Positions 5,891-22,596 of a stretch of 64,000 nucleotides of DNA are shown piece by piece. Below the pieces are notes generated by a model that had not been told where the DNA came from, made no database searches, and saw nothing but the letters and a program-made list of their open reading frames with translations. The stretch spans positions 186,001 through 250,000 of the forward strand of contig NZ_JAUOEM010000001.1 in assembly GCF_030540875.1 (NCBI RefSeq), given 5' to 3'. This stretch comes from Flavivirga amylovorans. Lineage in GTDB: Bacteria; Bacteroidota; Bacteroidia; Flavobacteriales; Flavobacteriaceae. A program made the position numbers and the translations under genes. Each line of letters opens with the position of its first letter. Position 1 is the stretch's first letter.

Positions 5891-5929
5891 TGATTATAGT
5901 AATTTAGGAGTTTATAAAATGTATGCTAA

Positions 5930-6934: not shown

Positions 6935-7656
6935 AAAATATAAAACACATCATTATATGTTTTTTGGTTTCAGTTTCTTGCTCAAATGATGATGAGGTAA
7001 TTTTAACTTTATCAGAATATATACAAGGAAGGACAACTGAAATGGGAGCTGTTATAGCTTGCGCTGCCAGTGATGAAGCTAATGGTGATGTTTTAACCTT
7101 TTATTATCCAGAATCTGGCGCAACCGATATCAGATTTTACCAAACGGATGATGCCAATGTTGATAACAGTAATTTTTCAAATTATTTCAGAGTATTATTA
7201 AATAATGATCCTTTTTTTAATGGGTATTTAGGTAAGTTTACACAAGCTGCTATTACCGAAAAATGGATTGTTATTACGTTTGAATTGGACGGAGAAATTA
7301 AAATGTCTAACCCTATTAGAACTAAGCAAATTTCAAAGCCAACTGTTTGGAGTAACGATGTAGATATTAATCAAGATGTGTCAGGGATGCCTAGCTTTAC
7401 TTGGGTTGATAACCCTGTTGGAGATAATACTATTTATTTTCAAGTAATTTCTGATGATCAAAATAACCTGCTATCAGGCACTTATACTTATCAAAACTAT
7501 TTTCAATATTACGATACTAGCAATGTCGTTTTAAACATTACTACAGAAACACCCCAGTCTTTAGTCTTAAATAATACTTATAACTTCACCTTAATGGATG
7601 TAAGTGAAGACAATTGGGTGAATTTTGTTATTAATAAAACTTTTACCTCCCAGTGA
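6931..7656 (+). CDS. Hypothetical lipoprotein
   Basis: A 241-residue protein with a lipoprotein signal ending SVSC at Cys17, followed by acidic SNDDE, a sequence often associated with surface export of Bacteroidota lipoproteins. I do not recognise the mature domain; it has beta-rich, immunoglobulin-like spacing and no catalytic motif. It is joined by a 4-bp overlap to the GH113-like gene upstream and by a 4-bp GTGA overlap to the BamA-like gene downstream. It is therefore part of a tightly coupled operon. Confidence 0.7.
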   Translation: MKNIKHIIICFLVSVSCSNDDEVILTLSEYIQGRTTEMGAVIACAASDEANGDVLTFYYPESGATDIRFYQTDDANVDNSNFSNYFRVLLNNDPFFNGYLGKFTQAAITEKWIVITFELDGEIKMSNPIRTKQISKPTVWSNDVDINQDVSGMPSFTWVDNPVGDNTIYFQVISDDQNNLLSGTYTYQNYFQYYDTSNVVLNITTETPQSLVLNNTYNFTLMDVSEDNWVNFVINKTFTSQ

Positions 7657-8924
7657 AAAGAATTATAACTATTATTTTACTGTTGCTTTTTGCATTTTCT
7701 TATGCACAAGAACAAAGTATTTATAAAATTGATATAGAAGGGAATAAAAGAACCAGAACAGCATTCTTAAAAAGGTTAGCTTTTGTAAAAGAAGGTAGTA
7801 TTTTAGATTCTACTAAAATAACTTCAGATATAAGACGCTTAAAGTTACTGCCTTCGGTAGCAAACGCAGAATATAAATTAGAGTCTATAGGCAATGGAAA
7901 ACAGCATTTAACTTATATTATAGAAGAGAATTTTGCCATTATTCCTGGGCTAAATATAGCTACAGATAATAACGGAGAATTTGCTTATAGAGTCTCGCTA
8001 TTTGATTTTAATTTTTTAGGTAGAAATCAGATAATAGGCGGTTTTTACAGCAGAGATGTATTTAATTCTTATGGGGCTTTTTGGGAAGCACCAAACCTAT
8101 TTACCCGTAAATTAGGAATAGGAATAAATTACCAAAACTTGGTGTCTCAAGAGCCTGTTTTTTTTAATAATGGTAGTGATGTAAATTATAAATTTGATTA
8201 TAAAGCATTTGAAATTAAACTTCAGTATGAACCAAATTTTCATAACCGGTTAGAGTTCGGTTTAAATATTGATTCAGAAGACTATAGTTTTTTAGAAGGT
8301 AATTTGCCTATTGGCACCCCTTCACAATTAAATGCTAACAAAATATCTGTCATTGGTGAATATGAATACAATAATATCAATATATTCTATCAGTATCAAG
8401 ATGGTTTTAGAAGTATTCTAACATATAGGTTTGTTACTGGTAACAAAGGAGAAAATGATCTTTTAAGAAATTTCTTTATAGGTAGAAATGATTTTGAATA
8501 TTTTAAAAGAATAGGAGACAGAGGTCATTGGGCGAATAGGTTGCGGTTGGCTTACGCATCTAATGATGATACCCCTTTTGCACCTTTTGCTGTAGATAAT
8601 CAGTTAAATATTAGAGGCGCAGGTAACACTATTGATAGAGGGACCGCAGCCATAGTTCTCAATACTGAATATAGACAGACCTTATATGAGAAAGGCTGGT
8701 TTGTATTACAAGGTAATGCCTTTGTTGATGCAGGGTCTTGGAGAACTCCAGGAGGTGATTTAGGAGAGTTGTTTGATGGTAGTACGATTAAATTTTATCC
8801 AGGTCTAGGAATTAGGTTTATACATAAAAGGATTTTTAATGCTGTTTTTAGGTTGGACTATGGCTATGGAATAGGTGATGACGCCACCAATGGTATTGTT
8901 TTTGGAATTGGACAATACTTTTAA
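7653..8924 (+). CDS. BamA/TamA-like outer-membrane protein (copy 1)
   Basis: A 423-residue protein beginning at GTG 7653, chosen because it gives a signal peptide (MKRIITIILLLLFAFSYAQ) and a GTGA overlap with the preceding stop. Residues about 20-80 form a single POTRA domain (IYKIDIEGNKRTRTAFLKR). The rest is an Omp85-type barrel with the conserved RGAGNTIDRG loop near 320, ending in IVFGIGQYF with a terminal Phe. BamA proper has five POTRA domains and about 800 residues, so this is a shortened Omp85 relative, perhaps for inserting or translocating a specific client such as the neighbouring lipoproteins. Confidence 0.8.
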   Translation: MKRIITIILLLLFAFSYAQEQSIYKIDIEGNKRTRTAFLKRLAFVKEGSILDSTKITSDIRRLKLLPSVANAEYKLESIGNGKQHLTYIIEENFAIIPGLNIATDNNGEFAYRVSLFDFNFLGRNQIIGGFYSRDVFNSYGAFWEAPNLFTRKLGIGINYQNLVSQEPVFFNNGSDVNYKFDYKAFEIKLQYEPNFHNRLEFGLNIDSEDYSFLEGNLPIGTPSQLNANKISVIGEYEYNNINIFYQYQDGFRSILTYRFVTGNKGENDLLRNFFIGRNDFEYFKRIGDRGHWANRLRLAYASNDDTPFAPFAVDNQLNIRGAGNTIDRGTAAIVLNTEYRQTLYEKGWFVLQGNAFVDAGSWRTPGGDLGELFDGSTIKFYPGLGIRFIHKRIFNAVFRLDYGYGIGDDATNGIVFGIGQYF

Positions 8925-9130
8925 TCGAAAAGAACGTTTCTTGACTTTTCTTTGAAGAAAAAGTGATGCATTTCGTTTCTAAATGAAGTCTTTTTAAGGA
9001 TGATACATCCTACTATATAATAAAAAGACCAAATATGGGGGACAAATGATGATTTTGTAGTAAATCATTAAAAGTCTAAAAGAGTTCGTTTTAAAAGTTT
9101 TATTTTTAATGCATGATTTTGCCCTTTTAT

Positions 9131-10387
9131 ATGTTTAAAAGAACCATTATATTTTTATTGTTTATTTCAGGTTTGTATTCTTATGGACAAGAAAAAATAG
9201 TACATGACCTTAAAATTCAGGGTAATAAAAAAATAAAAACCTCATTTATAAAAGGCATATCTACTATCAAATCAGGTAGTCCATTAGATTCTTTAACTAT
9301 AGAACAAGACATTTTACGTTTAAAACGATTGCCTTCAGTTTCGCATGCTTATTATCAGGTATTTCTTTCAGAAGACAATCAATACAATGTATTTTATAAT
9401 ATTGAAGAAAATTTTACACTCATACCGTCTTTAAATATTTACACGACTAATGATGATGAGTTTGCATATCGAGCAGGACTTTATGAGTTTAATACATTAG
9501 GCAGAAATATAACTGTTGGAGGTTTCTACCAAAAAGATATTTATAGTTCTTACGCTGTAAATTTCAGAGCACCTTATTTGTTTTCTAATAAGCTTGGATT
9601 AGCAATAAATCATCAAAATTTAACAACTCAAGAACCTGTTTTTTTTGATGAAGGAACGGCAGATTATAAATATAATAATAAATCGTTTGAAATTTTAGGC
9701 TTGTATGAAATCAACTTTAAAAACAGATTTGAACTCGGTCTAAATTATTTTACAGAGGACTATAAGTTTAAAGGAGAAAATATTAATAACAGACCAGAAT
9801 TAAATGTACATAAATGGCTAGTAAAAGGCATTTATGAGTATAACAACTTGGATTATTATTACCAATATATATCAGGATTTAGAAGTCAGTTTAACTTTCA
9901 GTATGTGACATCTACTAATAATATGTTGCCAGATTTTTTTATTGGTTGGAATGATTTCTTTTATTTTAAGCGTGTTGGAAAACGAGGGAATTGGGCTAAC
10001 AGACTAAGGATGGGGTTATCAACTAACGATAATACACCATTTGCTCCTTTTTCAGTAGATAATAATTTAAATGTTAGAGGTGTTGGTAATACTATAGATA
10101 GGGGGACAGGTGTTATTGTGCTTAATACAGAATACCGTCATACTCTATATGAAAAGGACTGGTTTGTTTTGCAAGGAAACGCTTTTGTAGATAGCGGTAC
10201 ATGGCGAAACCCTGGAGGTGATTTTGGAGATTTTAGCAAAGAGGATAACGTTAAAGTATATCCAGGTTTAGGACTCCGTTTTATTCATAAAAAAATATAT
10301 AATGCTATTTTTAGAATTGATTATGGATACGGTGTTACCAAAAACTCGACCAAAGGTTTTGTATTTGGTATAGGACAATATTTTTAA
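9131..10387 (+). CDS. BamA/TamA-like outer-membrane protein (copy 2)
   Basis: A 418-residue paralogue of the preceding gene, aligning along its whole length: single POTRA domain (VHDLKIQGNKKIKTSFIKG), RGVGNTIDRG loop, and the ending FVFGIGQYF. I prefer ATG 9131 because it starts the signal peptide (MFKRTIIFLLFISGLYSYGQ); an in-frame ATG at 9113 would add six residues. It is separated from copy 1 by about 200 bp holding short inverted repeats, so it may have its own promoter. The pair is a tandem duplication that has diverged substantially. Confidence 0.8.
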   Translation: MFKRTIIFLLFISGLYSYGQEKIVHDLKIQGNKKIKTSFIKGISTIKSGSPLDSLTIEQDILRLKRLPSVSHAYYQVFLSEDNQYNVFYNIEENFTLIPSLNIYTTNDDEFAYRAGLYEFNTLGRNITVGGFYQKDIYSSYAVNFRAPYLFSNKLGLAINHQNLTTQEPVFFDEGTADYKYNNKSFEILGLYEINFKNRFELGLNYFTEDYKFKGENINNRPELNVHKWLVKGIYEYNNLDYYYQYISGFRSQFNFQYVTSTNNMLPDFFIGWNDFFYFKRVGKRGNWANRLRMGLSTNDNTPFAPFSVDNNLNVRGVGNTIDRGTGVIVLNTEYRHTLYEKDWFVLQGNAFVDSGTWRNPGGDFGDFSKEDNVKVYPGLGLRFIHKKIYNAIFRIDYGYGVTKNSTKGFVFGIGQYF

Positions 10388-10600
10388 TTGTTATTCCTGC
10401 GAAGGTAGGAATCCACTAGTTTATAATTATTTTGATAGATAAATGCTCTGCCAAGGAACCTTTAATCAATAAACCTGTAAATTTTCTGTTTTGTTGTATA
10501 AAACAAATTTGGGTGACATCTGTTTTTATAAAAACAAAGTAGCAATATTAATATTTCTAATATCAAAGTGGTTCCCTGCCTTCGCAGGGACGACAAAACA
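10386..10600. repeat. Inverted-end element (MITE/REP-like) between barrel gene and pyc
   Basis: The two ends of this gap are imperfect inverted copies of about 30 bp. The left end (10388-10417) reads TTGTTATTCCTGCGAAGGTA and onward. The right end (10568-10598), on the other strand, reads TTGTCGTCCCTGCGAAGGCA and onward. Each end is itself a short palindrome around CCTGCGAAGG. The 150 bp between them is AT-rich and without a convincing gene. It lies between two convergent genes, so it may also act as a bidirectional transcription end. No transposase is present. Confidence 0.6.
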
Positions 10601-13600
10601 TTATTCTAATAGCAATACCAAGTCATCAGAATTTACCATAGTACCCTTCTTTAAAGCAATTTGTTTTACGGTTGCATTTTCAACGGCAGTAATAGTCGTT
10701 TCCATTTTCATAGCTTCTATAATAAATAATGGTTGGTTTTTTGCAACCTGTTCTCCTTTTTTCACCAAAACGGTAGATAACATACCTTGTAAAGGGGCGC
10801 CTATTTGTTTTTCATTAGTTTTATCTACCTTAACATGTTCAACCTTATCTACTTTTATAGATGTGTTTTTAATTTCAACACTACGTCCTTGACCATTTAC
10901 CCTAAAATAGACTGTAACTATACCATCTATATTTGGTTCTCCTACAGATTCCAGAGTGATAAGTACCGATTTCCCTTTGTCTAGTGTTACTATAATGTCT
11001 TCCCCTATATCCATACCATAAAAGAAGTTTTTAGTGGGTAAATGCATAAGATTGCCGTATTTCAAATGTTTGTTGTAGGCATCAGTAAATACTTTTGGAT
11101 AAAGGCTGTAAGATAAAAAATCAGTAATGTCTATGGGCCTGCCTAAACCTTTTTCAAATGTTTTTTTGAAGGATTTGTAATCTTCCTCAAGGTCTATAGG
11201 GGGTATATGAGCGTTAGGTCTGTCTGAGTATGGTTTTTGGTCTTTTAAAATTAATTTTTGAAGCTTTTTAGGAAAGCCCCCAACGGGTTGTCCTAAATCC
11301 CCTTTAAAGAAACTTACCACAGATTGTGGAAACGAAATAGTATCTCCACGTTCTAGCACATCATTAATGGTTAAATTGTTGCTCACTAAATATTGTGCCA
11401 TATCACCAACAACTTTCGAGCTTGGAGTTACCTTGACAATATCACCGAAAAGCTGATTTACCTCGCCGTACATTTTTGTTATTTCATGAAAACGATCCTC
11501 TAAACCTAAAGCCTGTGCTTGTGGTTTAAGATTAGAATATTGTCCTCCGGGAATTTCGTGTTTAAAGACTTCTCCAGACCCAGCTTTTAAACCAGATTCA
11601 AATGGATAATAATACTCTCTCACAGATCCCCAATAATTTGAATAGTCATTTAAAGAATCTATATTTATAGAAGGTTCTCTGTCGTGATACTTTAACATCT
11701 CAACAATGGAATTGAAGTTTGGTTGTGATGTTAATCCAGATAAACCACCTAAAGCAACATCAACTACATCTACACCAGCTTCAATAGCTTTTAAATAGGT
11801 TGCAGATTGAACAGATGAAGTGTCGTGAGTATGTAAATGGATAGGAATATTTATGGCTTGTTTTAATGCTGAAATAAGTTCGAAGGCGGCATATGGTTTT
11901 AATAAGCCGGCCATATCTTTAATAGCTAAAATATGAGCACCAGCATTTTCAATATCCTTAGCTAGGTTGGTATAGTATTTTAGATTGTATTTTGTGTTTT
12001 CGGGATTTAATATGTCTCCAGTGTAACAGATAGAACCTTCTGCTAATCCTTTTGTTTTATTTCGTACATGCTCTATACATGGAGCAATAGATTTCATCCA
12101 ATTAAGAGAATCAAAAATTCTAAAAATATCAACACCATGTTCCCAAGATTGCTCTACAAATTTTTCTATTAAATTATCTGAATAAGCTTTATAACCAACA
12201 CCATTAGAACCTCTAATTAGCATTTGTAATAAAACATTTGGCATGGCTTTACGAAGCATTTGAAGGCGTTCCCATGGGTTTTCTTGTAAAAATCGCATAC
12301 AAACATCAAAAGTAGCACCACCCCAAACTTCCATACTAAATATTTCTGGATGATTTTTTGCATAACCTTCTGCAACTTTCATCATATCAAAAGTACGCAT
12401 ACGAGTCGCTAATAAACTTTGATGTGCATCGCGCATCGTGGTATCTGTAAAATGAATTTTCTTTTCATTTTTTAACCATTTAGAAAACTTTTCAGGACCT
12501 AATTTTGTTAATAGATCTTTAGTGCCTTCGGTGTGATTGGCAGTGAGATCAAATTTTGGAATTTTTGGTTTTACAAAGGTTTTAGATGGATCTAATTTTT
12601 TTACATCTTCATTTCCATTAATAATAGTGTCTCCCAGATAAGTGATAATTTTTGTAGCTCTGTTTCTAGATTCTTTAAAATTGAATAAATCAGGATTCGA
12701 CTTAATAAAGTTTACCGTTATTTTTCCTTTTTTAAAAGTATCGTGTTTTAGAATATTAATTAAAAAAGGAATGTTGGTTTTTACCCCTCGAATTCTAAAT
12801 TCAGCTAAAGCACGTCTTACCTTTCTACTGGCACCATCTAAAGTTCTACTATTAGCAGTAACTTTGACTAACATAGAATCGAAAAAAGGAGAAATCGTAA
12901 CACCTTGATAAATACTACCAGCATCTAAGCGAATACCAAATCCAGAAGCACTTCTATATGCCGAAATAGTTCCGTAATCTGGTTTGAAATCATTTTGCGG
13001 ATCTTCAGTAGTTATTCTACATTGTAATGCATACCCCGTTATTTTTATGGTTTCCTGATTTGTTATTTTTATTTGTTGATCTGATAATTTATAACCTCCA
13101 GCAACAAATAGTTGAGTTTTAACTAAATCTATATTTGTAACAACCTCAGTAACAGTGTGTTCTACTTGAATTCTTGGATTGACTTCAATAAAATAAATCG
13201 AATCATCTTCATCTACCAAAAACTCTACGGTACCAATATTATTATAATTTACAGCTTTACAAATTTTTATAGCATAATCATATAAGGCTGTTTTTGTTTC
13301 TTCTTTTAAACCATAAGAAGGCGCGAATTCTATAACCTTTTGATAGCGACGTTGTACAGAACAATCTCTTTCATATAGGTGTACCGTGTTACCATAATTA
13401 TCTGCAACAATTTGAATTTCTATATGTTTTGGATTTTCGACAAATTTTTCTAAAAATACGGTATCGTCTCCAAAAGCATTTAGGGCTTCACGCTTACTTT
13501 CATTAAAAGCACCCTTTAATTCGCCTTCTTTTCTTATAACCCGCATACCTCTTCCCCCGCCTCCAGAAGCTGCTTTTAGCATTACAGGATAGCCAATTTT

Positions 13601-14053
13601 TTCAGCTTCACTTAACGCTGTTTTTATATTATTTAAAGGTTTTGCATTGCTTTTTATAATAGGAATATCATTATCTATTGCGACTCTTTTAGCTGTAATT
13701 TTATCGCCTAACGCTTTTAAAACACTAATCTTGGGTCCGATGAAAATAATATTATTATCCTCGCATGCTTTTGCGAAAGCTGCATTTTCTGAAAGAAAAC
13801 CATAACCAGGATGTATAGCATCGGCACCGCTTTCTAATGCAATTTTTATAATAATATTTATATTTAAGTACGGTTTTAAAGGTTCATTGTCTTCACCTAT
13901 TTGATAGGCTTCATCAGATTTGTGCCTGTGAAGAGAATACCTGTCTTCATAAGTATAAATACCAACAGTTTTTACACTAATTTCAGCACATGCTCTAAAA
14001 ATTCTTATAGCAATTTCACCGCGATTGGCAACCAGTACTTTTTTAATTTTCAT
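10601..14053 (-). CDS. pyc: Pyruvate carboxylase
   Basis: A full-length 1150-residue enzyme that makes oxaloacetate from pyruvate, bicarbonate and ATP, refilling the TCA cycle. Domains run in order. The N-terminal biotin carboxylase (VLVANRGEIAIRIFRACAE, then the Gly-rich ATP-grasp loop KAASGGGGRGMRV near 160) comes first. It is followed by the carboxyltransferase (HFTDTTMRDAHQSLLATRMR near 535) and the biotinyl domain with FIIEAMKMETT near the C-terminus, where the lysine carries biotin. It is monocistronic, facing an upstream 257-bp spacer that also serves the divergent phosphatase gene. Confidence 0.97.
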   Translation of the reverse strand: MKIKKVLVANRGEIAIRIFRACAEISVKTVGIYTYEDRYSLHRHKSDEAYQIGEDNEPLKPYLNINIIIKIALESGADAIHPGYGFLSENAAFAKACEDNNIIFIGPKISVLKALGDKITAKRVAIDNDIPIIKSNAKPLNNIKTALSEAEKIGYPVMLKAASGGGGRGMRVIRKEGELKGAFNESKREALNAFGDDTVFLEKFVENPKHIEIQIVADNYGNTVHLYERDCSVQRRYQKVIEFAPSYGLKEETKTALYDYAIKICKAVNYNNIGTVEFLVDEDDSIYFIEVNPRIQVEHTVTEVVTNIDLVKTQLFVAGGYKLSDQQIKITNQETIKITGYALQCRITTEDPQNDFKPDYGTISAYRSASGFGIRLDAGSIYQGVTISPFFDSMLVKVTANSRTLDGASRKVRRALAEFRIRGVKTNIPFLINILKHDTFKKGKITVNFIKSNPDLFNFKESRNRATKIITYLGDTIINGNEDVKKLDPSKTFVKPKIPKFDLTANHTEGTKDLLTKLGPEKFSKWLKNEKKIHFTDTTMRDAHQSLLATRMRTFDMMKVAEGYAKNHPEIFSMEVWGGATFDVCMRFLQENPWERLQMLRKAMPNVLLQMLIRGSNGVGYKAYSDNLIEKFVEQSWEHGVDIFRIFDSLNWMKSIAPCIEHVRNKTKGLAEGSICYTGDILNPENTKYNLKYYTNLAKDIENAGAHILAIKDMAGLLKPYAAFELISALKQAINIPIHLHTHDTSSVQSATYLKAIEAGVDVVDVALGGLSGLTSQPNFNSIVEMLKYHDREPSINIDSLNDYSNYWGSVREYYYPFESGLKAGSGEVFKHEIPGGQYSNLKPQAQALGLEDRFHEITKMYGEVNQLFGDIVKVTPSSKVVGDMAQYLVSNNLTINDVLERGDTISFPQSVVSFFKGDLGQPVGGFPKKLQKLILKDQKPYSDRPNAHIPPIDLEEDYKSFKKTFEKGLGRPIDITDFLSYSLYPKVFTDAYNKHLKYGNLMHLPTKNFFYGMDIGEDIIVTLDKGKSVLITLESVGEPNIDGIVTVYFRVNGQGRSVEIKNTSIKVDKVEHVKVDKTNEKQIGAPLQGMLSTVLVKKGEQVAKNQPLFIIEAMKMETTITAVENATVKQIALKKGTMVNSDDLVLLLE

Positions 14054-14310: not shown

Positions 14311-15042
14311 ATGAGAACATTTGCAGTCGGAGACATTCATGGAGGTTTAAAAGCTTTAACTCAAGTATTGAATAAAATTGAAGTTAAAGAAGAAGATACA
14401 CTTATTTTTATGGGCGATTATGTAGACGGATGGAGTGAGTCAGCTCAGGTAATTGAGTTTTTAATAGAACTATCTCAAAAGATACATTGTGTTTTTATAA
14501 AAGGTAACCATGATGTTTGGTGTGAAAACTGGTTGAGTTCTGAGGATGTAAACCCCATTTGGTATATACATGGAGGAAAGGAAACCATTGAAAGTTATGC
14601 CCATTTTTCTAAGGATGAAAAGAAGCAGCATTTAGAGTTTTTTGAAAACATGCCTTTGTACCATATTGATAATGAAAATCGTTTATTTGTTCATGCAGGT
14701 TTTACTTCGATGCATGGTGTGGAAAAAGAGGTGTTTAAAGAAACACTTTATTTTGATAGAACCCTTTGGGAAATGGTTTTGAATAAGGACAGTAATATAG
14801 GAGAAGATTCTATTTTATACCCTAATCGTTTAAAACATTATAAAGAAATTTATATAGGTCACACACCTACGACTAACTTTAATTCAGATATTCCAATGCA
14901 TGCTGCTAATGTATGGAATGTCGATACAGGTGCAGCATTTAAAGGGAAGTTGTCTATAATGGATTTAAATTCAAAAGAAGTTTTTCAAAGCGATAATTTA
15001 CCAGCTTTATACCCTGATGAGAAAGGGAGAAATAAAGATTGA
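14311..15042 (+). CDS. Metallophosphatase, PPP/diadenosine-tetraphosphatase type
   Basis: A 243-residue cytosolic enzyme with the calcineurin-like metal-binding signature: GDIHG at residue 8, GDYVDGW near 36, GNHD near 62, and late histidines in HAGF and IGHTPT. These bind two metal ions for phosphoester hydrolysis. The substrate (phosphoprotein or nucleotide) is not determined. It converges on the arsenosugar-type glycosyltransferase gene with only 2 bp between stops. It may not belong to that cluster functionally because it is on the opposite strand. Confidence 0.85.
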   Translation: MRTFAVGDIHGGLKALTQVLNKIEVKEEDTLIFMGDYVDGWSESAQVIEFLIELSQKIHCVFIKGNHDVWCENWLSSEDVNPIWYIHGGKETIESYAHFSKDEKKQHLEFFENMPLYHIDNENRLFVHAGFTSMHGVEKEVFKETLYFDRTLWEMVLNKDSNIGEDSILYPNRLKHYKEIYIGHTPTTNFNSDIPMHAANVWNVDTGAAFKGKLSIMDLNSKEVFQSDNLPALYPDEKGRNKD

Positions 15043-15044
15043 TT

Positions 15045-15740
15045 TTATTTAAAAACATACTTTCTATAATAACGGTTTAGCTCATCTGCATCTGCGCCCA
15101 TCCATTTTTTTAGATGAATTCTTAAAAAATGATACTGTAATCTCCATACACCATTAGTACAATAACATCTTGCTGAAGTTGTTAACCATTTTTGGATAAC
15201 AACAAATTGTTTGCGATCATATAATTTAGCAATAAAATCGTTGTCTTCGTATATCGTGAAGTCTTCATTAAAACCTTCAATATCATTAAAAAGTGAAACT
15301 GTTACGAATTGACTTTGATCACCGCCTCGACAAATTTTCCAAGGTAAACGTGTTAGCTGACCAGCAAGTATAAGCCATAAATGATTGCTGTTAAATTTCA
15401 TTCTAAAACAACCTGCTTTATTCCCATTTTTGATTTCGTTTATAATTAAGGTATCGAAATCTTTTGGCGGAAATGAATCGGCATGTAAAAAGTAAAGAAT
15501 ACTTCCTGTAGCACGTTTGGCTCCTAGATTCATTTGTTTGGCACGTCCTTTTGATGAATTGAAGAGTTTTACGGATTTAAATTTTGAAATAATGTTAAGA
15601 GATCCGTCAGTACTTCCGCCATCCACAATAATTATTTCAGCTATGTTTTCTTTCGATGAATTTTCTAAAAGATGAGTAAGCAAATTATCAATATGATCTG
15701 CTTCGTTTAACATGGGGATAATTATTGATATTTTACTCAT
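15045..15740 (-). CDS. rSAM-associated glycosyltransferase (TIGR04283-like)
   Basis: A 231-residue GT2-fold enzyme: IIPMLNEADHIDNLLTHLL at the N-terminus, VDGGSTDGS near residue 40, and LHADSFPP near 90 as the DxD-type site. This size and motif set match the glycosyltransferase family found beside the ArsS-type radical SAM gene and now called an arsenosugar biosynthesis glycosyltransferase. It would add a sugar to the arsenic-containing riboside; the acceptor is inferred from context. It overlaps the upstream DUF547 gene by 8 bp and is the last gene of the cluster. Confidence 0.85.
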   Translation of the reverse strand: MSKISIIIPMLNEADHIDNLLTHLLENSSKENIAEIIIVDGGSTDGSLNIISKFKSVKLFNSSKGRAKQMNLGAKRATGSILYFLHADSFPPKDFDTLIINEIKNGNKAGCFRMKFNSNHLWLILAGQLTRLPWKICRGGDQSQFVTVSLFNDIEGFNEDFTIYEDNDFIAKLYDRKQFVVIQKWLTTSARCYCTNGVWRLQYHFLRIHLKKWMGADADELNRYYRKYVFK

Positions 15741-16590
15741 TTAAATTCCAATTATAGTCTATAAAATTCTTTTTCGCTTTGTCAGAAATTGTGATATCTG
15801 AGTATTGATTAAGAAAATCAATTAATGTACCGGTTTGTTTAAAATCTTTGGCAAACCACTGAAATATTTTTGAGAGGCCAAGACTGTTTTTAGAAATGGT
15901 ATTTCTTTCAGGGTCATTTAAGAATTCTTTAGTTGCGTTGGTTAATTGTTCATCTATGCCTAATTCCGTATAAGCTTCGTTTTGTAATTTAGGACAAGAG
16001 AACGAAGCGCAAACTATAGCAAAATGAATACGAGGCTCATCCATTTTACGTAAAATTTGATGTTCAATTTCATTTAGATTATACCATTTTTCACCAAGTT
16101 TCCAAAAGCGTTGTTCCCAAGGTTTTTTAATGTCTTTAATACTTTTAATGGGGTAATATCGCAAAATTAAATCGATGGTCATAGCATTATAAGCATTGAT
16201 CCAATAGGCAAGTTTAGCTTCCTTTGTCGTGGAGTCTTGTGGTATATGGTTGCCTAGATAAGTAATGTAATTTACTAATTCATTTCGATTCGTTTTAAAA
16301 GCTTTGTAGTCAACATGACCTTTATTTGAGACATGTTTTTGAAGTAAAGTATCCCAAGACGAATGATCAAAATTTTTCGTTGATTTTATTTTTTCTGGTA
16401 CTTTTTTTATTTCTGGGTCAATATTATTCTTCTCCAAAATAACATTGTTTTTTTCTTTATTAACAACAACAGTGTCAACCTTTATTGGTTTAATTTGTTT
16501 GATGTTTTTTGAAGTGTTTTCTGTGATGTTTTTTGTACTGGAGCAGGATAATAAAGCAATTATTATGAACAAAACTGTAATGTACTTCAT
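15733..16590 (-). CDS. DUF547 lipoprotein in the arsenosugar cluster
   Basis: A 285-residue lipoprotein: MKYITVLFIIIALLSC gives a lipobox with Cys16. An ATG three codons further upstream at 16599 is possible. Residues 17-90 are a Lys/Asn-rich linker; the DUF547 domain follows with LAYWINAYNAMTIDLILRYY and RIHFAIVCASFSCPKL. DUF547 proteins recur beside the rSAM-linked glycosyltransferases, but their reaction is unproven. It overlaps the glycosyltransferase gene by 8 bp and is separated from arsM by about 740 bp without a gene, so it may have its own promoter. Confidence 0.82.
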   Translation of the reverse strand: MKYITVLFIIIALLSCSSTKNITENTSKNIKQIKPIKVDTVVVNKEKNNVILEKNNIDPEIKKVPEKIKSTKNFDHSSWDTLLQKHVSNKGHVDYKAFKTNRNELVNYITYLGNHIPQDSTTKEAKLAYWINAYNAMTIDLILRYYPIKSIKDIKKPWEQRFWKLGEKWYNLNEIEHQILRKMDEPRIHFAIVCASFSCPKLQNEAYTELGIDEQLTNATKEFLNDPERNTISKNSLGLSKIFQWFAKDFKQTGTLIDFLNQYSDITISDKAKKNFIDYNWNLNE

Positions 16591-16599
16591 ATAAAGCAT

Positions 16600-17238
16600 T
16601 TTTTATTATAATGCTTTTGACGATATAAAACGAAAGTTCTTACTACAAATTATAAATTTAAATGATAAAGAAGCGATTGCGCATATTTTTGGAGTACTTT
16701 TTAAGCTATTCCAACTTGGAAAGAAAAAGCCAAAACTCACTTTTTTTAAATTCTTAGAATTTTAAAAGATATCACTCTGGCTTTTTTGGGGCTATTTATA
16801 GCAAATCCATAACGCCACTACTCACTACTTTATTATTATAAGGTAAAAAGGGTAGTGTCTAACTCGCGCTAGTGGTTACTATATTTATCTGCTTAATAAG
16901 AAGGTTTGTTCTATTTTTTTGAACAAATACTATAAGGGATTTGTTGGTTTTACTATGTAAAAGTAGGGTTTTTACCATTATTTTAATTCAGATTAAGGGC
17001 TGTTATGAGTCGACAAATTTCGATAAAAAAACTTATCTCTAAAGGATGAAAAATTACCTGAAAAGGATCGTTGATTGAAGAGATTCGGATTAAAAAAACG
17101 ATAATACGAATTTATAATTGTGTTCTAAGTAGATATGAAGTATGTTAAAGAAAATTGTTATAAAAAAATTAAAAACCTTCGTTTTAAAGAGTATTGTAAA
17201 AAAAGGAGCCTGATCTAAAAAAGTAAATAGAATTGAAT
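16600..17238. other. Gene-free gap between arsM and the DUF547 gene
   Basis: I found no coding frame, RNA gene or pseudogene here on either strand. The sequence is AT-rich with short poly-A and poly-T runs. Around 16810-16883 there is a weak interrupted palindrome (CCACTA and CACTAC on the left, GTAGTG and TAGTGG on the right) that could fold. The gap likely contains the promoter for the DUF547-glycosyltransferase pair, but I cannot point to a consensus. Confidence 0.4.
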
Positions 17239-17309
17239 GTCCGATTGAACGCAGCCGAAACCTTCATGTTTAATAAGGTATTTTAGTTCTCGATTGCGCT
17301 CGAACGGAC
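17239..17309. repeat. Imperfect inverted repeat downstream of arsM
   Basis: Left arm 17239-17262 (GTCCGATTGAACGCAGCCGA and onward) pairs imperfectly with right arm 17286-17309, whose complement reads GTCCGTTCGAGCGCAATCGA. The loop is about 23 nt. It begins 22 bp after the arsM stop. It is either a small dispersed repeat or a transcription end for the cluster; it has no clear U-tract on the minus strand, which favours a repeat. Confidence 0.5.
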
Positions 17310-17331
17310 AAAATTAGATTTTCAAACAGTC

Positions 17332-18303
17332 TTAACAGCACCCTCCACCATCATAATGGTATGTAGATTCTGAAAAATAAATATCATCTCTATTCAATGC
17401 CTTTAACATTCCTGCTGTTTTATCACAAATGGCTAATGGCTGATTTTTTAGTAAAACATGTCCAGCTTTATCATCAAAATAATCTTCATCTCCATAATAA
17501 ATAGCTGCTTTACCTGTAAATATACAAGGGCCATCTGCAGGCATAGGGTCTTTTATAGCAGCAACTTCAATAGATTCTATATAAATTAACTCATCTGTTG
17601 GGTAATTTTTAGGATCTAATATTCTATAAGGCTTTCTCGCTCTAATTTCAATAGTGCCGAAACCAGCGTCCGTTAATGCTTTTACATAGTCTGCAATAGG
17701 TAAACTACCGCTTAAACATAAAGCACGTAATCTTTCATCATTACGTAACGTATCATTCATAGGTTGTTCGCATGTTGGATCACTCATTACTAATCTACCA
17801 TGAGGTTTTAAAACGCGATACATTTCTGCAATAGCTTTTTTAAGATCGTCTGCTTTAAAAATATTGAATAAGCAGTTCTGAGCTGCCACATCAATACTAT
17901 TATCTTCTACTGGAAGATTCATGGCATCTCCTTTTTTAAGATCAACAAATTCACTTTTAAACCATTCGTTTTGAGCTTCAGCTTCAATAAAATTTTTACG
18001 AGAGGCTTCTAACATTTCATCTACAACATCTACGCCTACAACACCTCCTTTTTGGCGATTAAAATAAGCGAACTGTAACAATTCCATACCACCACCAACA
18101 CCAACATAAAGCATTTTTGGATTGTTGGTTAAATCGCGAGCATGAACTGTGCTTCCACAACCATAGTTCATTTCTTGCATGATTTTTGGTATTTTTAAAC
18201 CAGGTAATTCCCAAATTGGGTTTGTGGTGCAACATAACCCAACATCGGGTGTTAAAGCTGCTTCTTTATAAACATCGTGAGTTGTTTCTAAATAATTATT
18301 CAT
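17332..18303 (-). CDS. arsM: Arsenite methyltransferase of arsenosugar pathway (ArsM-like)
   Basis: A 323-residue SAM-dependent methyltransferase. The SAM-binding glycine motif is LYVGVGGGMELLQF near residue 92, with VVGVDVVDEML at the end of strand 2. Cysteines that could hold trivalent arsenic are Cys24-Cys25 (GLCCTTNP), one near 49 (NYGCGST), one near 135 (AAQNCLF), and a terminal GGGCC at 319-323. Family members methylate arsenite to dimethylarsenical, the substrate for ArsS. The stop of the PNP gene lies 2 bp upstream of its start, so the two are translationally coupled. Confidence 0.85.
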   Translation of the reverse strand: MNNYLETTHDVYKEAALTPDVGLCCTTNPIWELPGLKIPKIMQEMNYGCGSTVHARDLTNNPKMLYVGVGGGMELLQFAYFNRQKGGVVGVDVVDEMLEASRKNFIEAEAQNEWFKSEFVDLKKGDAMNLPVEDNSIDVAAQNCLFNIFKADDLKKAIAEMYRVLKPHGRLVMSDPTCEQPMNDTLRNDERLRALCLSGSLPIADYVKALTDAGFGTIEIRARKPYRILDPKNYPTDELIYIESIEVAAIKDPMPADGPCIFTGKAAIYYGDEDYFDDKAGHVLLKNQPLAICDKTAGMLKALNRDDIYFSESTYHYDGGGCC

Positions 18304-18305
18304 AA

Positions 18306-19118
18306 TTATAAGGTCTTAATAAGTTCTTTAAATAAGGTTATCATATCGGGTTCTGCTTTTGCGGCATTTTCAATAATCTCCGAAATGTTAACGGGTGCTA
18401 AGTTGTTTGGGTCGCATTCATCTGTTAAAACTGACACAGCTGCTGCTTTTAATTTTAAATGATTTGCCACAATAATTTCAGGTACTGTGCTCATACCTAC
18501 AGCGTCCGACCCAATAATTTTTAGCATACGATACTCTGCTTTTGTTTCTAATTGTGGGCCGACAACACTTGCATAAACACCTTTGTGCAATTTGATAGTG
18601 TTCGCTTTGGCTATGCTTTCAAATTTTGAATTAATTTCAGCATTGTAAGGAGCACTCATATCTGTAAAGCGTTCTCCTAATTCACTAACACCCTTGAATG
18701 CTAAAGGAGAGCTGCCTTGTAAATTAATGTGATCTTCAATAAGCATTAGTTCCCCTTTTTTAAAGTCTAAATTAATGGCGCCAGCTGCATTAGAAACCAA
18801 TAATGTCTTGATACCTAACTTTTCCATAATACGAACAGGGTAGGTGACATCTTGTAATGTGTAGCCTTCATATAAGTGAAAACGCCCTTGCATGACTATA
18901 ATTTTTTTACCAGCAAGTTCTCCATAAATTAGTTTTCCTTTATGAAATTCAACCGTTGCTGTTGGAAAGTTAGGAATATGATTATAGCTCACTTCTTTTA
19001 TGATGTCTATTTCGGTGATGAGTTGGCCTAATCCTGTACCGAGTATGATACCAATTTCAGGAGATTCAAAACCTTTGTCTTGTAGATATTTAGTGGTTTC
19101 GTTTATGTATTTAATCAT
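18306..19118 (-). CDS. Purine-nucleoside phosphorylase
   Basis: A 270-residue trimeric-type PNP: IGIILGTGLGQL near residue 23, the phosphate-binding MQGRFHLYEGY near 76, GVYASVVGPQLETKAEYRM near 185-205, and DAVGMSTVPE near 210. It cleaves purine nucleosides with phosphate. In this cluster, a specific role is plausible: removing adenine from an arsenic-substituted adenosine made by ArsS to leave the ribosyl part for glycosylation. General purine salvage is the alternative. Spacing to arsM is 2 bp. Confidence 0.92.
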   Translation of the reverse strand: MIKYINETTKYLQDKGFESPEIGIILGTGLGQLITEIDIIKEVSYNHIPNFPTATVEFHKGKLIYGELAGKKIIVMQGRFHLYEGYTLQDVTYPVRIMEKLGIKTLLVSNAAGAINLDFKKGELMLIEDHINLQGSSPLAFKGVSELGERFTDMSAPYNAEINSKFESIAKANTIKLHKGVYASVVGPQLETKAEYRMLKIIGSDAVGMSTVPEIIVANHLKLKAAAVSVLTDECDPNNLAPVNISEIIENAAKAEPDMITLFKELIKTL

Positions 19119-19168
19119 CTTATTTTTTTTGAAATTAATTTTAAAAAATGCTATGTAATGTAATGAAT

Positions 19169-19804
19169 TTATACGTCTTCAATTAAAGATTTAATCTTTA
19201 ATTGAAGGGATTCATTATATTGATAAAATGCTGAGTTTTCTAAGTCTTCGAACGTGTCAATATCATTTAAAGCTTCTAATAAAGTATAAGATATATTTTC
19301 TTGACTTAAGTCTTTGAGCGTTACTTCAAGTAAGTGAGATTCACTCCAAGGTTTATTATTGAATATAGAATGATACATTTTTGTCATTCCTACTAAGTAG
19401 TAACCACCGTCAATAGCAGGCCCAAAAACAACCTCATTGCTATTTAAACTTTTTAATCCACCTTCAATATGTTCTAAGCTAATATCAGGTAAATCTGAAC
19501 CTATAAGTACAATGCGTTCGTAGCCATCTTCAAACCCTTTTGTAAAAGCATTTTTCATACGTTCGCCTAAGTTTTTACCTTCTTGAATCGTTTTATAATC
19601 GTTTTTCCATTTGGTATTTATTACAGCATCAGAAAAATAGATTCGTTTATCTGCTTGAAGATTTTGAGTAGCCTCTTCGGTTACTTTAACTAATTCACTA
19701 TAAACATCAAAAGCGCCTTGATTACCAATCGTTTTGGCGAGTCTTGTTTTTACTTTTCCTAGCTTTATGTTTTTTACAAAAACAATAACGAGTTCTTTAT
19801 TCAT
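19169..19804 (-). CDS. rSAM-associated transferase (TIGR04282-like)
   Basis: A 211-residue nucleotidyl/glycosyl-transferase of GT-A fold (DUF2064 family). Diagnostic segments are VFVKNIKLGKVKTRLAKTIG near the start, ERMKNAFTKGF near 80, VLIGSDLPDI near 100 and FGPAIDGGYYLVGM near 130. The family is found beside the ArsS-type radical SAM protein and is annotated as an arsenosugar biosynthesis glycosyltransferase. It overlaps the rhodanese gene upstream by 8 bp. Donor and acceptor are inferred from context only. Confidence 0.87.
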   Translation of the reverse strand: MNKELVIVFVKNIKLGKVKTRLAKTIGNQGAFDVYSELVKVTEEATQNLQADKRIYFSDAVINTKWKNDYKTIQEGKNLGERMKNAFTKGFEDGYERIVLIGSDLPDISLEHIEGGLKSLNSNEVVFGPAIDGGYYLVGMTKMYHSIFNNKPWSESHLLEVTLKDLSQENISYTLLEALNDIDTFEDLENSAFYQYNESLQLKIKSLIEDV

Positions 19805-20291
19805 ATACTTTTATACCTTTTTTTAACCATTTACTCCATTCTTTCGAAAAGGTGTGAATGCTATCTGTTTCTTTTTCTGCGGAATTATAAACAGGAAAAT
19901 TATTGCTTTTCCATTCAAAAATACCACCATATAAATTTTCTACATATCTATATCCTGCTTTTTTAAGACTGTCTGCTATAGATTCTGAACGAATTCCAAG
20001 CGAGCAATACACAACTATTTTAGCGTCTTTATTTGGAACCTTTTTTTGTACACTATCTATTTTAAAATGGTTGTAACCCACATGAATGGCGTTTTTTAAA
20101 TGGCTTGTTTTGTATTCTTTTAACTCTCTGGAATCTAATATGATAACATCTGTTTTTGGCATTGCCAATTCCTGAACCGTTATATAAGGCACACTATTGT
20201 CGTTATATTGTTTCAATAACTTGTCAATAGATTTTTGTGCAAACAAAGAAAAGCTTTGAAGAAATAATAAAAAGAGGAAGGTGTTTTTCAT
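19797..20291 (-). CDS. Exported rhodanese-like protein
   Basis: A 164-residue protein with a signal peptide (MKNTFLFLLFLQSFSLFAQ) and one rhodanese domain. DVIILDSRELKEYKTSHLKNA leads to the active-site loop VYCSLGIRSESIADSL, where the cysteine near residue 112 can carry a persulfide. It would work in the periplasm as a sulfurtransferase or perhaps as an oxyanion-binding protein. It overlaps the TIGR04282-like gene by 8 bp. Upstream lies the pseudogene patch rather than a normal promoter spacer. Confidence 0.87.
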   Translation of the reverse strand: MKNTFLFLLFLQSFSLFAQKSIDKLLKQYNDNSVPYITVQELAMPKTDVIILDSRELKEYKTSHLKNAIHVGYNHFKIDSVQKKVPNKDAKIVVYCSLGIRSESIADSLKKAGYRYVENLYGGIFEWKSNNFPVYNSAEKETDSIHTFSKEWSKWLKKGIKVYE

Positions 20292-20341
20292 AACGATTTA
20301 GTCTCTCAAATTTAATAAAATTACAACTGAATACCGAATCC

Positions 20342-20520
20342 TTATACCTTACTTTCTATGTCAGGTAGAATTTCTGTATTATCGCAAATTCCAGTAATAA
20401 TTGTTCTGGCATATTCTTTAGGAAGTAATCCGTTTTGCATTAATTTGTTAGTTAGTTTATAATTGTAATTTAGTGTACGATGCTCATAGTTTAAAATACC
20501 ATTGTCATCACCTAAAATAG
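20342..20520 (-). pseudogene. Remnant reading frame of unknown origin
   Basis: After the SusC remnant the minus strand continues as about 60 open codons, with segments such as ILGDDNGILNYEHRTLNYNY and LMQNGLLPKEYARTIITGIC, ending DIESKV and TAA at 20342. It has normal amino-acid composition but no start codon, and it does not continue the TonB-receptor sequence. I read it as the C-terminal end of a different gene fused to the receptor fragment by deletion. The protein family is not recognised. Confidence 0.5.
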
Positions 20521-20912
20521 TTGACCATATTCGTTTTGAAATTCTGGTAATTTAAAAAGCAGAATCTATAGAAACGGATGAATTTAAACTAACCTGAAAT
20601 CCTTTTTTACTATTGTCATTTTTGGTTTTAATAACAATAACACCGTTTGATGCTCTGGTTCCGTAAAGTGCATCAGCATTAAATGATTACCGATTCAATA
20701 TCGTCTGGATTGACTTCCATTACGTCGTTTCCAAAATCTATTTCTTGAAATCTGGCAGTGGCTTAATTGGTGATGAGATTAAAAACTGTTTCGTTATTTA
20801 TAGGAATGTCATCTACGACAAATAGCGGATTGTTATTTAAAAACGATGCTTCGCCACGAATTGTGGTTTTAGAAGACGAACCAACGCCTCTAGTGCTTTG
20901 CGTAACTGTTGT
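20521..20912 (-). pseudogene. Decayed SusC/RagA TonB-receptor plug fragment
   Basis: Minus-strand translation gives a SusC-type plug in broken frames. VTQSTRGVGSSSKTTIRG and NPLFVVDDIPI run to a stop at 20763. After a frame change come VNPDDIESV and then ALYGTRASNGVIVIKTK and GFQVSLNSSVSIDSAF, followed by a stop. In the next frame comes LPEFQNEYGQ. These match the order of the SusC consensus (TQ..GxPGxG..IRG, PLYVVDGVPI, LNPxDIESxxVLKxxxAALYGSRAxNGVxxITTK, LPEFQNEYGQ), with the VLK segment deleted. At least one deletion, two frameshifts and stops make it non-functional. It touches arsS through a short palindromic core at 20911-20930. Confidence 0.85.
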
Positions 20913-20932
20913 TCCCACCTTTGCAGGGATAT

Positions 20933-22018
20933 TTATGCAACAACACCTTGGCAACTACTTCCTGCACCTGCCGTACAACCATAGCAATGTTGTGAAATGA
21001 CAATATTTCGCTCTTCTAATAATTCTTCATTAAATTCTGAAATATGCTTTGATTTACTATTAACTGGTAATTCTAACATTTGATTAAAATCGCAATCAAA
21101 TAAAAACCCATTCCAACTTATGGACAATGTATTTGTACACATAACATTTGCTACAGCAGCAGGATTATAGGCTTCAACAAGTTGATACATGTAATCTTCG
21201 TAATTTTCTGAAGCAATTAAATAATCAAGAAAACGTGCAATGGGCAAGTTGGTGATAGCAAAAAGATTATGAAATTGAATGCTAAAATCTTCCATTAAAG
21301 CCTTTTTAAAATCTTTTTCCATAGCCCTTTGATCGCCTGGCAAAAATGCTCCAGATGGATTATAAACTAAGTCTAGTCTCAAATTACTATTAGGCATACC
21401 GTAGCCTACAGCATTAAGTTCTTGTAATGCTTTTATGGATTTGTCGAAAACACCATCTCCCCTTTGTTTATCTGTTTTTCCACGTGTCCAATGTGGCATA
21501 GAACTTACAACGTGAACATTATGCTTTTTGAAGAATTCAGGTAAGTCGTAATATTTTTTATTGGAGCGAATAATCGTCAGGTTTGAACGTACAATAAAGT
21601 CTTTAATACCCACTTTAGCAGCTTCTTCAACAAACCATCTGAAATCAGGATTCATTTCAGGGGCACCACCTGTTAAATCAAGTGTATGTGCACCAGAATT
21701 TTTAATAACTTCCAAACATTGTTGCATGGTTTCACGAGTCATGATTTCCTTTCGGTCTGGACCTGCATCTACATGACAGTGCTCACAAACCTGATTGCAC
21801 ATATATCCCACGTTTATTTGTAAAATCTCTAGTTTTTTGGCTTTTAAAGGAAACTGGCTTGTTTCAGATATTTTATCCTTAAAAGTAGGTAATTCACCAT
21901 TTTTAAAAATTCCGTTAGATAAAATTTCTAATTGCCGGTTGCTTTGAGCTAAATCACTTTCGCGTTTTTGTAATGATTGTGTTTTTATTTTTGTCATGTC
22001 TACATTATCTGAGATCAT
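20933..22018 (-). CDS. arsS: Radical SAM arsenosugar enzyme ArsS-like
   Basis: A 361-residue radical SAM protein. The iron-sulfur motif CNQVCEHC has Cys74, Cys78 and Cys81, followed by HVDAGPDRKEIM and LDLTGGAPEMNP (the GGE-like SAM-binding motif). The C-terminal domain ends HCYGCTAGAGSSCQGVVA with Cys345, Cys348 and Cys356, the cysteine-rich domain once called the selenodomain. The family is thought to attach a 5'-deoxyadenosyl group to dimethylarsenite. The start is ATG 22018; ATG 21997 is possible. The stop abuts a palindromic core and a SusC fragment, so the original downstream flank has been rearranged. Confidence 0.88.
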   Translation of the reverse strand: MISDNVDMTKIKTQSLQKRESDLAQSNRQLEILSNGIFKNGELPTFKDKISETSQFPLKAKKLEILQINVGYMCNQVCEHCHVDAGPDRKEIMTRETMQQCLEVIKNSGAHTLDLTGGAPEMNPDFRWFVEEAAKVGIKDFIVRSNLTIIRSNKKYYDLPEFFKKHNVHVVSSMPHWTRGKTDKQRGDGVFDKSIKALQELNAVGYGMPNSNLRLDLVYNPSGAFLPGDQRAMEKDFKKALMEDFSIQFHNLFAITNLPIARFLDYLIASENYEDYMYQLVEAYNPAAVANVMCTNTLSISWNGFLFDCDFNQMLELPVNSKSKHISEFNEELLEERNIVISQHCYGCTAGAGSSCQGVVA

Positions 22019-22032
22019 AATTTTTTTTCATT

Positions 22033-22192
22033 GTTCATTTTGTCTTGATACAAAATGAACCAAAAAATCAAATCAATCTGAGGAAATTCCTGCGAATCAT
22101 TCACTTCCGGAATTACGTGCTTAAAACTATGTTTAGCACCTCCATTCCTTCGTTCATTATTTCTACAGATTGATGGTTCCGACAAAGTCGGA
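22033..22192. repeat. Repeat-rich spacer upstream of arsS
   Basis: Three palindromic units are stacked here. 22033-22060 is a perfect 11-bp hairpin (GTTCATTTTGT, loop CTTGAT, ACAAAATGAAC). 22072-22174 is bounded by perfect 9-bp inverted ends (ATCAATCTG and CAGATTGAT). 22178-22192 is a hairpin of TCCGAC, AAA, GTCGGA. No gene is present. The pattern resembles a decayed small mobile repeat. It lies between the peroxidase-like gene and arsS and may carry or disturb the arsS promoter. Confidence 0.55.
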
Positions 22193-22260
22193 AATTGGGG
22201 CTTGACTTTCTAATGAGTTATTTTTTATTTCAAATTATTTCTTCAACTTTCTAAACTCTA

Positions 22261-22596
22261 TTACCCGTCTAATTTATTTACTTTATTCATCATTTGAACA
22301 CCATGCACTAATGTTGCCCCACTTTTTATAGCAGCACCTACATGTATGGCTTCCATCATTTCGTCTTTTGTAACACCGCGTTGTAGACCATCTTTAGTAT
22401 AAGCATCAATACAGTACGGGCATTGTTCTGTATGTGCCACGGCTAATGCTATTAAAGATTTTTCGCGAGCAGTGAGCGCGCCTTCTTCAAAAACTTTGCC
22501 GTAGTACTCAAAGAATTTATTTCCTAATTCTTCGCTCCATTCGGTAATTTTTCCAAATTTTCTTAGGTCAGCAGGGTCGTAATATGTTTTTTGCAT
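22261..22596 (-). CDS. Carboxymuconolactone decarboxylase/AhpD-like protein of arsenosugar cluster
   Basis: A 111-residue AhpD-fold protein with the redox motif EQCPYCIDAYTKDGL near residue 60 and an alpha-helical EVxVGAAIKSGATLVH-like tail. This small peroxidase-like family occurs beside the ArsS-type radical SAM gene (TIGR04169-like). The CxxC with nearby His suggests thiol-disulfide or peroxidase chemistry in the cytosol, possibly reducing arsenicals. That role is inferred from context. It is the first gene of the minus-strand cluster, with arsS 242 bp downstream across a repeat-rich spacer. Confidence 0.83.
   Translation of the reverse strand: MQKTYYDPADLRKFGKITEWSEELGNKFFEYYGKVFEEGALTAREKSLIALAVAHTEQCPYCIDAYTKDGLQRGVTKDEMMEAIHVGAAIKSGATLVHGVQMMNKVNKLDG

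Follow-up and report, generated by a model that had tools for sequence, protein, structure and literature searches.

Seaweeds contain large amounts of arsenosugars and arsenolipids, according to the available part of PMC6656958, and two described systems come close to the locus studied here. The first is the cyanobacterial pathway of ArsM and ArsS (for ArsS, Cheng et al. 2021, as cited in the accessible portion of PMC12159101, which also covers the adenosylation of arsenic by a radical S-adenosylmethionine (SAM) enzyme). The second is the arsinothricin cluster arsQML, in the part of PMC8552651 available, where an ArsM is likewise accompanied by a radical SAM enzyme that makes a C-As bond, a role given in the same portion of PMC12159101. 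Here we analyze 64,000 nucleotides (the window) of the Flavobacteriaceae member Flavivirga amylovorans (assembly GCF_030540875.1, contig NZ_JAUOEM010000001.1, positions 186,001 to 250,000). Eight genes of its minus strand, read from 22596 down to 15045 as open reading frames, encode an AhpD-like protein, ArsS, a rhodanese-domain protein, a TIGR04282 protein, a purine nucleoside phosphorylase (PNP), ArsM, a DUF547 protein and a TIGR04283 protein.

Judged by its family matches, the locus is a cluster of already known type that had been read correctly; new here is the gap between ArsS and rhodanese, which its sequence marks as a deletion scar. The window has ArsM and ArsS of the same families as the cyanobacterial pathway and by this shares its first two reactions. 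It also carries PNP, TIGR04282, TIGR04283, AhpD-like, rhodanese and DUF547 genes on one strand, to which related operons add a symporter, a phosphoesterase and a SusC/SusD importer. The arsinothricin cluster uses another radical SAM family and makes another product; on NF040538 the ArsM of the window reaches 102 bits, where the cut-off is 500. All five NCBIfam families with arsenosugar names are matched (TIGR04282, TIGR04283, TIGR04167, TIGR04169 and NF038099, five of the seven NCBIfam models found); the import genes of the related operons bear no such name, and the name glycosyltransferase given to TIGR04282 conflicts with the nearest folds.

The gap between ArsS and rhodanese (20292-20932, 641 bp) holds two gene remnants, and stops fall within the frames of both. 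The first resembles the SusC-type TonB receptor of a relative in the same genus (76-88% identity by tblastn) and has 88% DNA identity to positions 5670-6071 of locus L198 of Flavivirga aquimarina, while the second is the 3' end of a metallophosphoesterase with 77% protein identity, where the DNA match resumes at L198 12002. The match to F. aquimarina thus jumps from L198 4353 to 5670 and again from 6071 to 12002, with flanks of 88-93% identity, and the window lacks 1,316 bp and 5,930 bp, about 7.2 kb in two steps. None of the SusC, SusD, symporter and phosphoesterase genes is intact at this gap, which has remnants only. Elsewhere in the genome of the window nothing long resembles the scar: the 40 candidates scored, out of 64, gave 51-58 bases at 78-83%. 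By these comparisons the gap is the deletion scar of a putative import segment lost by two deletions.

The segment is intact in three genomes of the genus (G148, G152 and G154), where ArsS and rhodanese are separated by five genes, which encode a shorter second TIGR04282-like protein, SusC, SusD, a sodium-solute-symporter-like permease and a metallophosphoesterase with no signal peptide visible (families named on G148). Eight others have rhodanese directly behind ArsS, 2-3 bases apart in the seven measured, and the window gap corresponds to neither the full nor the direct form. The earlier note on this DNA had called for a comparison of gene order in relatives, and the order of the window, from AhpD-like to TIGR04283, does recur in 8 of the 11 other genus members, some with extra genes. 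As in the SusC/SusD uptake loci of Bacteroidota, SusC and SusD are joined in the segment by a hydrolase and a transporter of the inner membrane; unlike those loci, the segment is embedded in an ArsS operon, and no inserted gene matched a glycoside hydrolase family. A search by title or the start of the abstract in the open-licence literature found no importer in an ArsS operon, which is weak evidence.

Seven symporters were aligned and used as a query against named genomes, and the best 80 of 336 relatives were kept (three genomes also occur under a second label: G152 = L198, G154 = L199 and G160 = L277). ArsS stands beside the symporter in 78 of these 80 loci, where the gene order is almost constant, and the contigs of the other two (L224 and L266) end upstream, in or near SusC. 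The set further contains rhodanese (78 loci), TIGR04282 (77), PNP (76), SusC (75), SusD (75), the second TIGR04282 paralogue (71), DUF547 (70), a fatty-acid-hydroxylase-type gene (58), TIGR04283 (56) and a linked ArsM (27). Three loci were measured from ArsS to PNP, using longest-frame starts, and have intergenic gaps between -157 and 108 bases. Within this best-80 set the import segment belongs to the ArsS operon.

Many of these loci lack a linked arsM. Of those 53, we searched 31 genome-wide: in 29 genomes nothing ArsM-like scores above 36 bits (genome completeness was unreported), and the other two have a match at 95-98 bits, compared with 566-573 bits in seven controls with linked ArsM. 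In pooled samples, uncorrected for kinship and sampling, an ArsM-like gene is missing from 29 of the 54 SusC genomes of known status and from 0 of 32 genomes without linked SusC (p 3.6e-8); adding G084, G148, G168 and G170, which were left out of the test and all have ArsM, gives 29/58. Over the 69 rows of an ArsS alignment, the CxxxCxxC motif (residues 74/78/81) and five more cysteines are invariant, and no column is diagnostic of ArsM-less genomes, whose ArsS has the same cysteines. The presence of ArsM on a tree of 68 ArsS proteins takes 18 parsimony changes, at least 10 of them forced by well-supported branches; L277 was removed from a second ArsS tree because of an implausibly long branch. 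Since ArsS stays unchanged while ArsM vanishes, and ArsM vanishes, in the genomes surveyed, only where an importer is in the operon, the import of methylated arsenicals would be the best explanation: an imported organic arsenical would make ArsM dispensable. We infer that SusC/SusD carry an organic arsenical from algae or seawater, and that the dimethylated arsenic for the operon is either made by ArsM or imported, the window having kept the ArsM route.

Our analysis therefore suggests, at about even chances, that the locus is a reduced form of a larger marine Flavobacteriaceae operon that builds a dimethylarsenic riboside, probably on glycerol or a lipid; relatives would import arsenic, and the lineage of the window would have lost the segment and use its own ArsM. 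A bolder version, which we propose tentatively and with some doubt, is a make-or-import system in which the importer takes methylated arsenicals or algal arsenosugars that are rebuilt into membrane arsenolipids, methylation has been discarded many times, and the window lineage has returned to its own synthesis and keeps the scar. Several observations weigh against import. The segment is intact in 3 of 12 genus genomes and is not the rule there, and SusC and SusD lie between ArsS and the rest in 6 of 35 ArsS-bearing family members in two draws (G084, G148, G152, G154, G168 and G170), so this is one form of the operon and not the rule. All six keep ArsM. The 80 loci were chosen via the symporter as the best by similarity, with Winogradskyella and Polaribacter over-represented; the genome-wide searches cover 31 of the 53 loci that lack linked arsM; and 'without SusC' means without linked SusC, so that the compact genomes may have unlinked SusC/SusD genes.

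A rival reading, in line with the family names, is plain de novo arsenosugar biosynthesis and detoxification, with the segment of the relatives being a separate nutrient importer whose loss means little. The ArsM and ArsS frames of the window are both present and open. Each of the 28 ArsS genomes in the relatives draw has an ArsM-type match, which passes the NF038099 cut-off in 25 and is weaker, at 98-109 bits, in the other 3, and the six SusC/SusD genomes just listed keep ArsM. We consider this reading quite unlikely in view of the symporter standing beside ArsS in 78/80 loci in a near-constant order with small gaps, and of the 29 of 31 genomes that have no ArsM-like match above 36 bits and still keep the remaining genes. 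If import is true, heterotrophic bacteria recycle algal organoarsenic and do not just make it.

The pathway that we propose for the reduced operon begins with the two steps known for the families: ArsM would give methylated arsenite, and ArsS would join the methylated arsenic to the 5'-deoxyadenosyl group of SAM. PNP may then swap adenine for phosphate to give 5-dimethylarsinoyl-ribose-1-phosphate; such a sugar-1-phosphate suits a nucleotidyltransferase, and the CofC-like TIGR04282 protein could turn it into a nucleoside diphosphate (NDP) sugar. An NDP-sugar in turn suits TIGR04283, which might transfer the sugar moiety onto a lipid or glycerol to form a beta-riboside. The predicted place of action of DUF547 and rhodanese is the cell envelope. 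In relatives, SusC/SusD, the symporter-like permease and the phosphoesterase would bring in an organic arsenical; in the window lineage, the two deletions would have left dependence on its own ArsM. The fatty-acid-hydroxylase-type gene found in 58 of the 80 loci is a hint of a lipid end product. Phosphorolysis gives an alpha-1-phosphate, from which an inverting family-2 glycosyltransferase makes a beta-riboside. PMC6656958 gives the natural compound the name of a beta-ribofuranoside, so the stereochemistry would fit the scheme. The earlier note had proposed the order methylate, adenosylate, remove adenine, glycosylate, and this is supported as an economical scheme, with the later steps still putative; we found no paper in the open-licence literature that settles the steps after ArsS. 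The operon thus offers a testable enzyme order of phosphorolysis, nucleotidyl activation and glycosyl transfer.

We calculated the distribution of these families in a phylum draw of 148 genomes, drawn evenly, for which kinship is uncorrected in all counts and p values. The numbers of genomes above the cut-offs are 58 for ArsS, 89 for TIGR04282, 74 for TIGR04283, 144 for PNP, 12 for the NF038099 ArsM, 15 for the NF045521 rhodanese and 63 for DUF547. TIGR04282 occurs in 56 of the 58 ArsS genomes versus 33 of the 90 ArsS-negative ones (Fisher p ~8e-15), and NF038099 is confined to ArsS genomes in both the phylum draw (12/12) and the relatives draw (25/25). The association of the families is not due to chance. 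The window ArsS itself is 97% identical to that of F. aquimarina, with its radical SAM motif intact, and ten cysteines of ArsM are conserved in 57 of 57 aligned rows, a few of which are the same genome twice.

Some counts tell against the pathway as drawn. Of the 56 genomes with both, 17 have ArsS and TIGR04282 on different contigs or separated by more than 10 kb, TIGR04282 and TIGR04283 lie within 10 kb of each other in 20 ArsS-negative genomes of the 148, and the PNP family occurs in nearly every genome (144/148). The second count also corrects the earlier note, which had implied that this pair is exclusive to arsenosugar clusters; the arsenosugar name of TIGR04282 and TIGR04283 is too narrow for a pair found without ArsS in 20/148 genomes. 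In two families ArsS, with or without the AhpD-like gene, is present or absent at one TIGR04282-TIGR04283 place with unchanged outer neighbours (present in G010 and G145 and absent in G020, G071, G106 and G117; present in G042 and absent in G026, G065, G077, G127, G139 and G143), which argues that the pair is a module of its own.

The main rival builds on such places: TIGR04282, TIGR04283, PNP, rhodanese and DUF547 would form an envelope sugar-lipid pathway without arsenic, into which ArsS and ArsM plug an arsenic branch, or else the substrate of ArsS would differ in ArsM-less genomes. It gains from the ten ArsS-negative genomes with DUF547 within 5 kb of core genes and from two gene groups in genomes without ArsS and NF038099, i.e. 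PNP-TIGR04282-rhodanese-DUF547 in G045 and rhodanese-TIGR04282-DUF547-TIGR04283 in G142. We judge it unlikely, as it has to accommodate the near-constant company of ArsS and TIGR04282 and an NF038099 that never occurs without ArsS in either draw. A further point against it comes from the family f21, where 10 of 11 ArsS-negative genomes have a radical SAM gene whose closest families are Rv1681 and ArsS, with scores far under the family cut-offs, so that an arsenic source may still exist there. This gene is directly behind an ArsM-like gene in seven genomes (L107 8575-10637, L109, L110, L115, L116, L117 and L118), stands alone in L105, L112 and L114, and is truncated in G054 (33 bits). The seven ArsS-positive f21 genomes show no such radical SAM protein above 34 bits among the matches listed, with kinship uncorrected, and the protein is a possible candidate for an ArsS replacement.

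The arsenic riboside pathway assigns the removal of adenine to PNP, and the alternative is an ordinary purine-salvage gene caught in the operon, with adenine removed by another enzyme. The abundance of the family fits this, and so do the cluster PNP being the sole NF006054 match in its genome (two other PNP_UDP_1 proteins are present) and the unlinked PNP of G019, G037 and G140, the three genomes with NF038099 that belong to other families. Within the family, however, PNP is linked to the core genes in 9/9 members with NF038099 in the phylum draw, as it is in 76/80 symporter loci, and G084 has a second PNP of another clade besides its cluster copy; we regard simple salvage as rather unlikely, and the cluster PNP may serve both purine salvage and the arsenosugar pathway. 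The cluster PNPs of nine family members form one clade, with the G045 copy just outside it together with two G049 copies, and the non-cluster PNPs of five family members and two of the same order form another. The 5'-pocket residue, which we take to correspond to human His257, is Ile in ten cluster PNPs and His in the non-cluster clade. A hydrophobic residue at this position was tried as a mark of 5'-deoxy substrates and rejected: Ile, Val or Leu is found there in 12 of 20 non-cluster PNPs, which takes away its value as evidence of specificity.

TIGR04282 is better called nucleotidyltransferase-like than a glycosyltransferase, a model-based preference given that the superfamilies share a fold. 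Its predicted structure (mean pLDDT 94.6) was compared with the PDB by Foldseek: rank 1 is the uncharacterised 3cgx, ranks 2-16 are nucleotidyltransferases, judged by title or, for Rv2983 and the Rv0371c homologue, by known function, and the first glycosyltransferase is at rank 17. The nearest folds after 3cgx are CofC/FbiD-type guanylyltransferases (6bwh, 2i5e and 7p97) at 14-16% identity. The protein matches Pfam CofC at 29 bits (cut-off 22) and NCBIfam TIGR03552 at 38 bits, under the cut-off of 105. A GxxKTR-type N-terminal loop, presumably nucleotide-binding, is present in 77/77 main TIGR04282 proteins of the 80 loci and in 0/71 of the second paralogue. Hence of the 'two glycosyltransferases' of the earlier note, TIGR04283 stands with its Glycos_transf_2 match, and TIGR04282 is not supported as one. 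Caution is needed with the name 'arsenosugar biosynthesis glycosyltransferase', which also falls on proteins of ArsS-less genomes; the part of PMC13077682 (2026) available lists two names of this type under arsenic sequestration. The second TIGR04282/DUF2064 paralogue (e.g. L169 8166-8849) is usually directly behind ArsS in the extended operons.

DUF547 and the import segment can now be named as candidate parts of the pathway. In the phylum draw a core gene is no more than 5 kb away from 31 of 87 DUF547 copies, whereas copies placed at random in 4-Mb genomes would give ~0.65. His and Cys residues are invariant in 16 sequences, and together with the lipoprotein-like start, seen by eye, this suggests an envelope enzyme. 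The structure model is confident over residues 80-288, and its fold has no PDB match at E 0.001 (best E 1.9); nor did the gene match an NCBIfam model. The earlier note had the AhpD and rhodanese proteins handle redox or sulfur; for the rhodanese, work on a cytoplasmic intermediate is doubtful in view of its signal-like start, again by eye.

Family calls in Table 1 are matches above curated NCBIfam cut-offs (seven genes) and, for DUF547, above the Pfam cut-off. They confirm the seven named families that the earlier note had placed together on one strand, and the arsenosugar type of ArsM and ArsS; the DUF547 gene, the spacer behind ArsM and the remnants in the gap had been omitted there.

Table 1. 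Features of the arsenosugar-type cluster in the window, in order of transcription
Feature	Coordinates	Strand	Evidence
AhpD-like, carboxymuconolactone decarboxylase fold, TIGR04169; first gene of the cluster	22261..22596	-	193 bits, cut-off 120
ArsS, radical SAM, TIGR04167; family adenosylating methylated arsenic	20933..22018	-	441 bits, cut-off 300
Scar, first half: broken SusC-type TonB receptor remnant, ~residues 144-267	20521..20915	-	395 bp
Scar, second half: broken metallophosphoesterase 3' end, ~residues 225-293, to last residue	20324..20520	-	
Rhodanese-domain protein, NF045521, probably exported	19797..20291	-	210 bits, cut-off 145; N-terminus by eye
TIGR04282/DUF2064, predicted CofC-like nucleotidyltransferase, would activate the arsenic sugar	19169..19804	-	189 bits, cut-off 134
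Purine nucleoside phosphorylase, NF006054	18306..19118	-	334 bits, cut-off 218
ArsM, arsenite methyltransferase of the arsenosugar family, NF038099	17332..18303	-	576 bits, cut-off 400
Spacer ArsM/DUF547, no recognised gene, 732 bp	16600..17331	-	
DUF547 protein, lipoprotein-like N-terminus by eye	15733..16599	-	Pfam 101 bits, cut-off 27
TIGR04283 family-2 glycosyltransferase	15045..15740	-	223 bits, cut-off 182; Pfam Glycos_transf_2

The spacer between ArsM and DUF547 is partly alike (68-90%) to the spacers of relatives in the same genus and has no match in the plasmid collection. We rejected it as a remnant of a fatty-acid-hydroxylase gene, the best E value of 0.11 being unconvincing. A PHO4-type phosphate transporter gene (Pfam, on L170) takes the place of the spacer in the clusters of four sister genomes (L170, L171, L172 and L176).

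Other broken genes were seen in relatives. G176 (L188) has an ArsS remnant at G176:C7:79733-80042, covering profile positions 194-301 with one stop, in an otherwise similar place, and Flavivirga jejuensis (L199, G154) has a second, broken partial arsM at 16884-17496 downstream of an intact copy. In the Flavicella genome G160 (L180) the import segment is reduced to the symporter and the phosphoesterase, and no AhpD-like gene was seen at the locus; its ArsS scores 416 bits with the window protein and sits on an implausibly long tree branch. In the window, a 1150-residue open reading frame at 10601-14053, by eye pyruvate carboxylase-like, lies beyond a phosphoesterase-type gene (14311-15042) and seems unrelated to the cluster.

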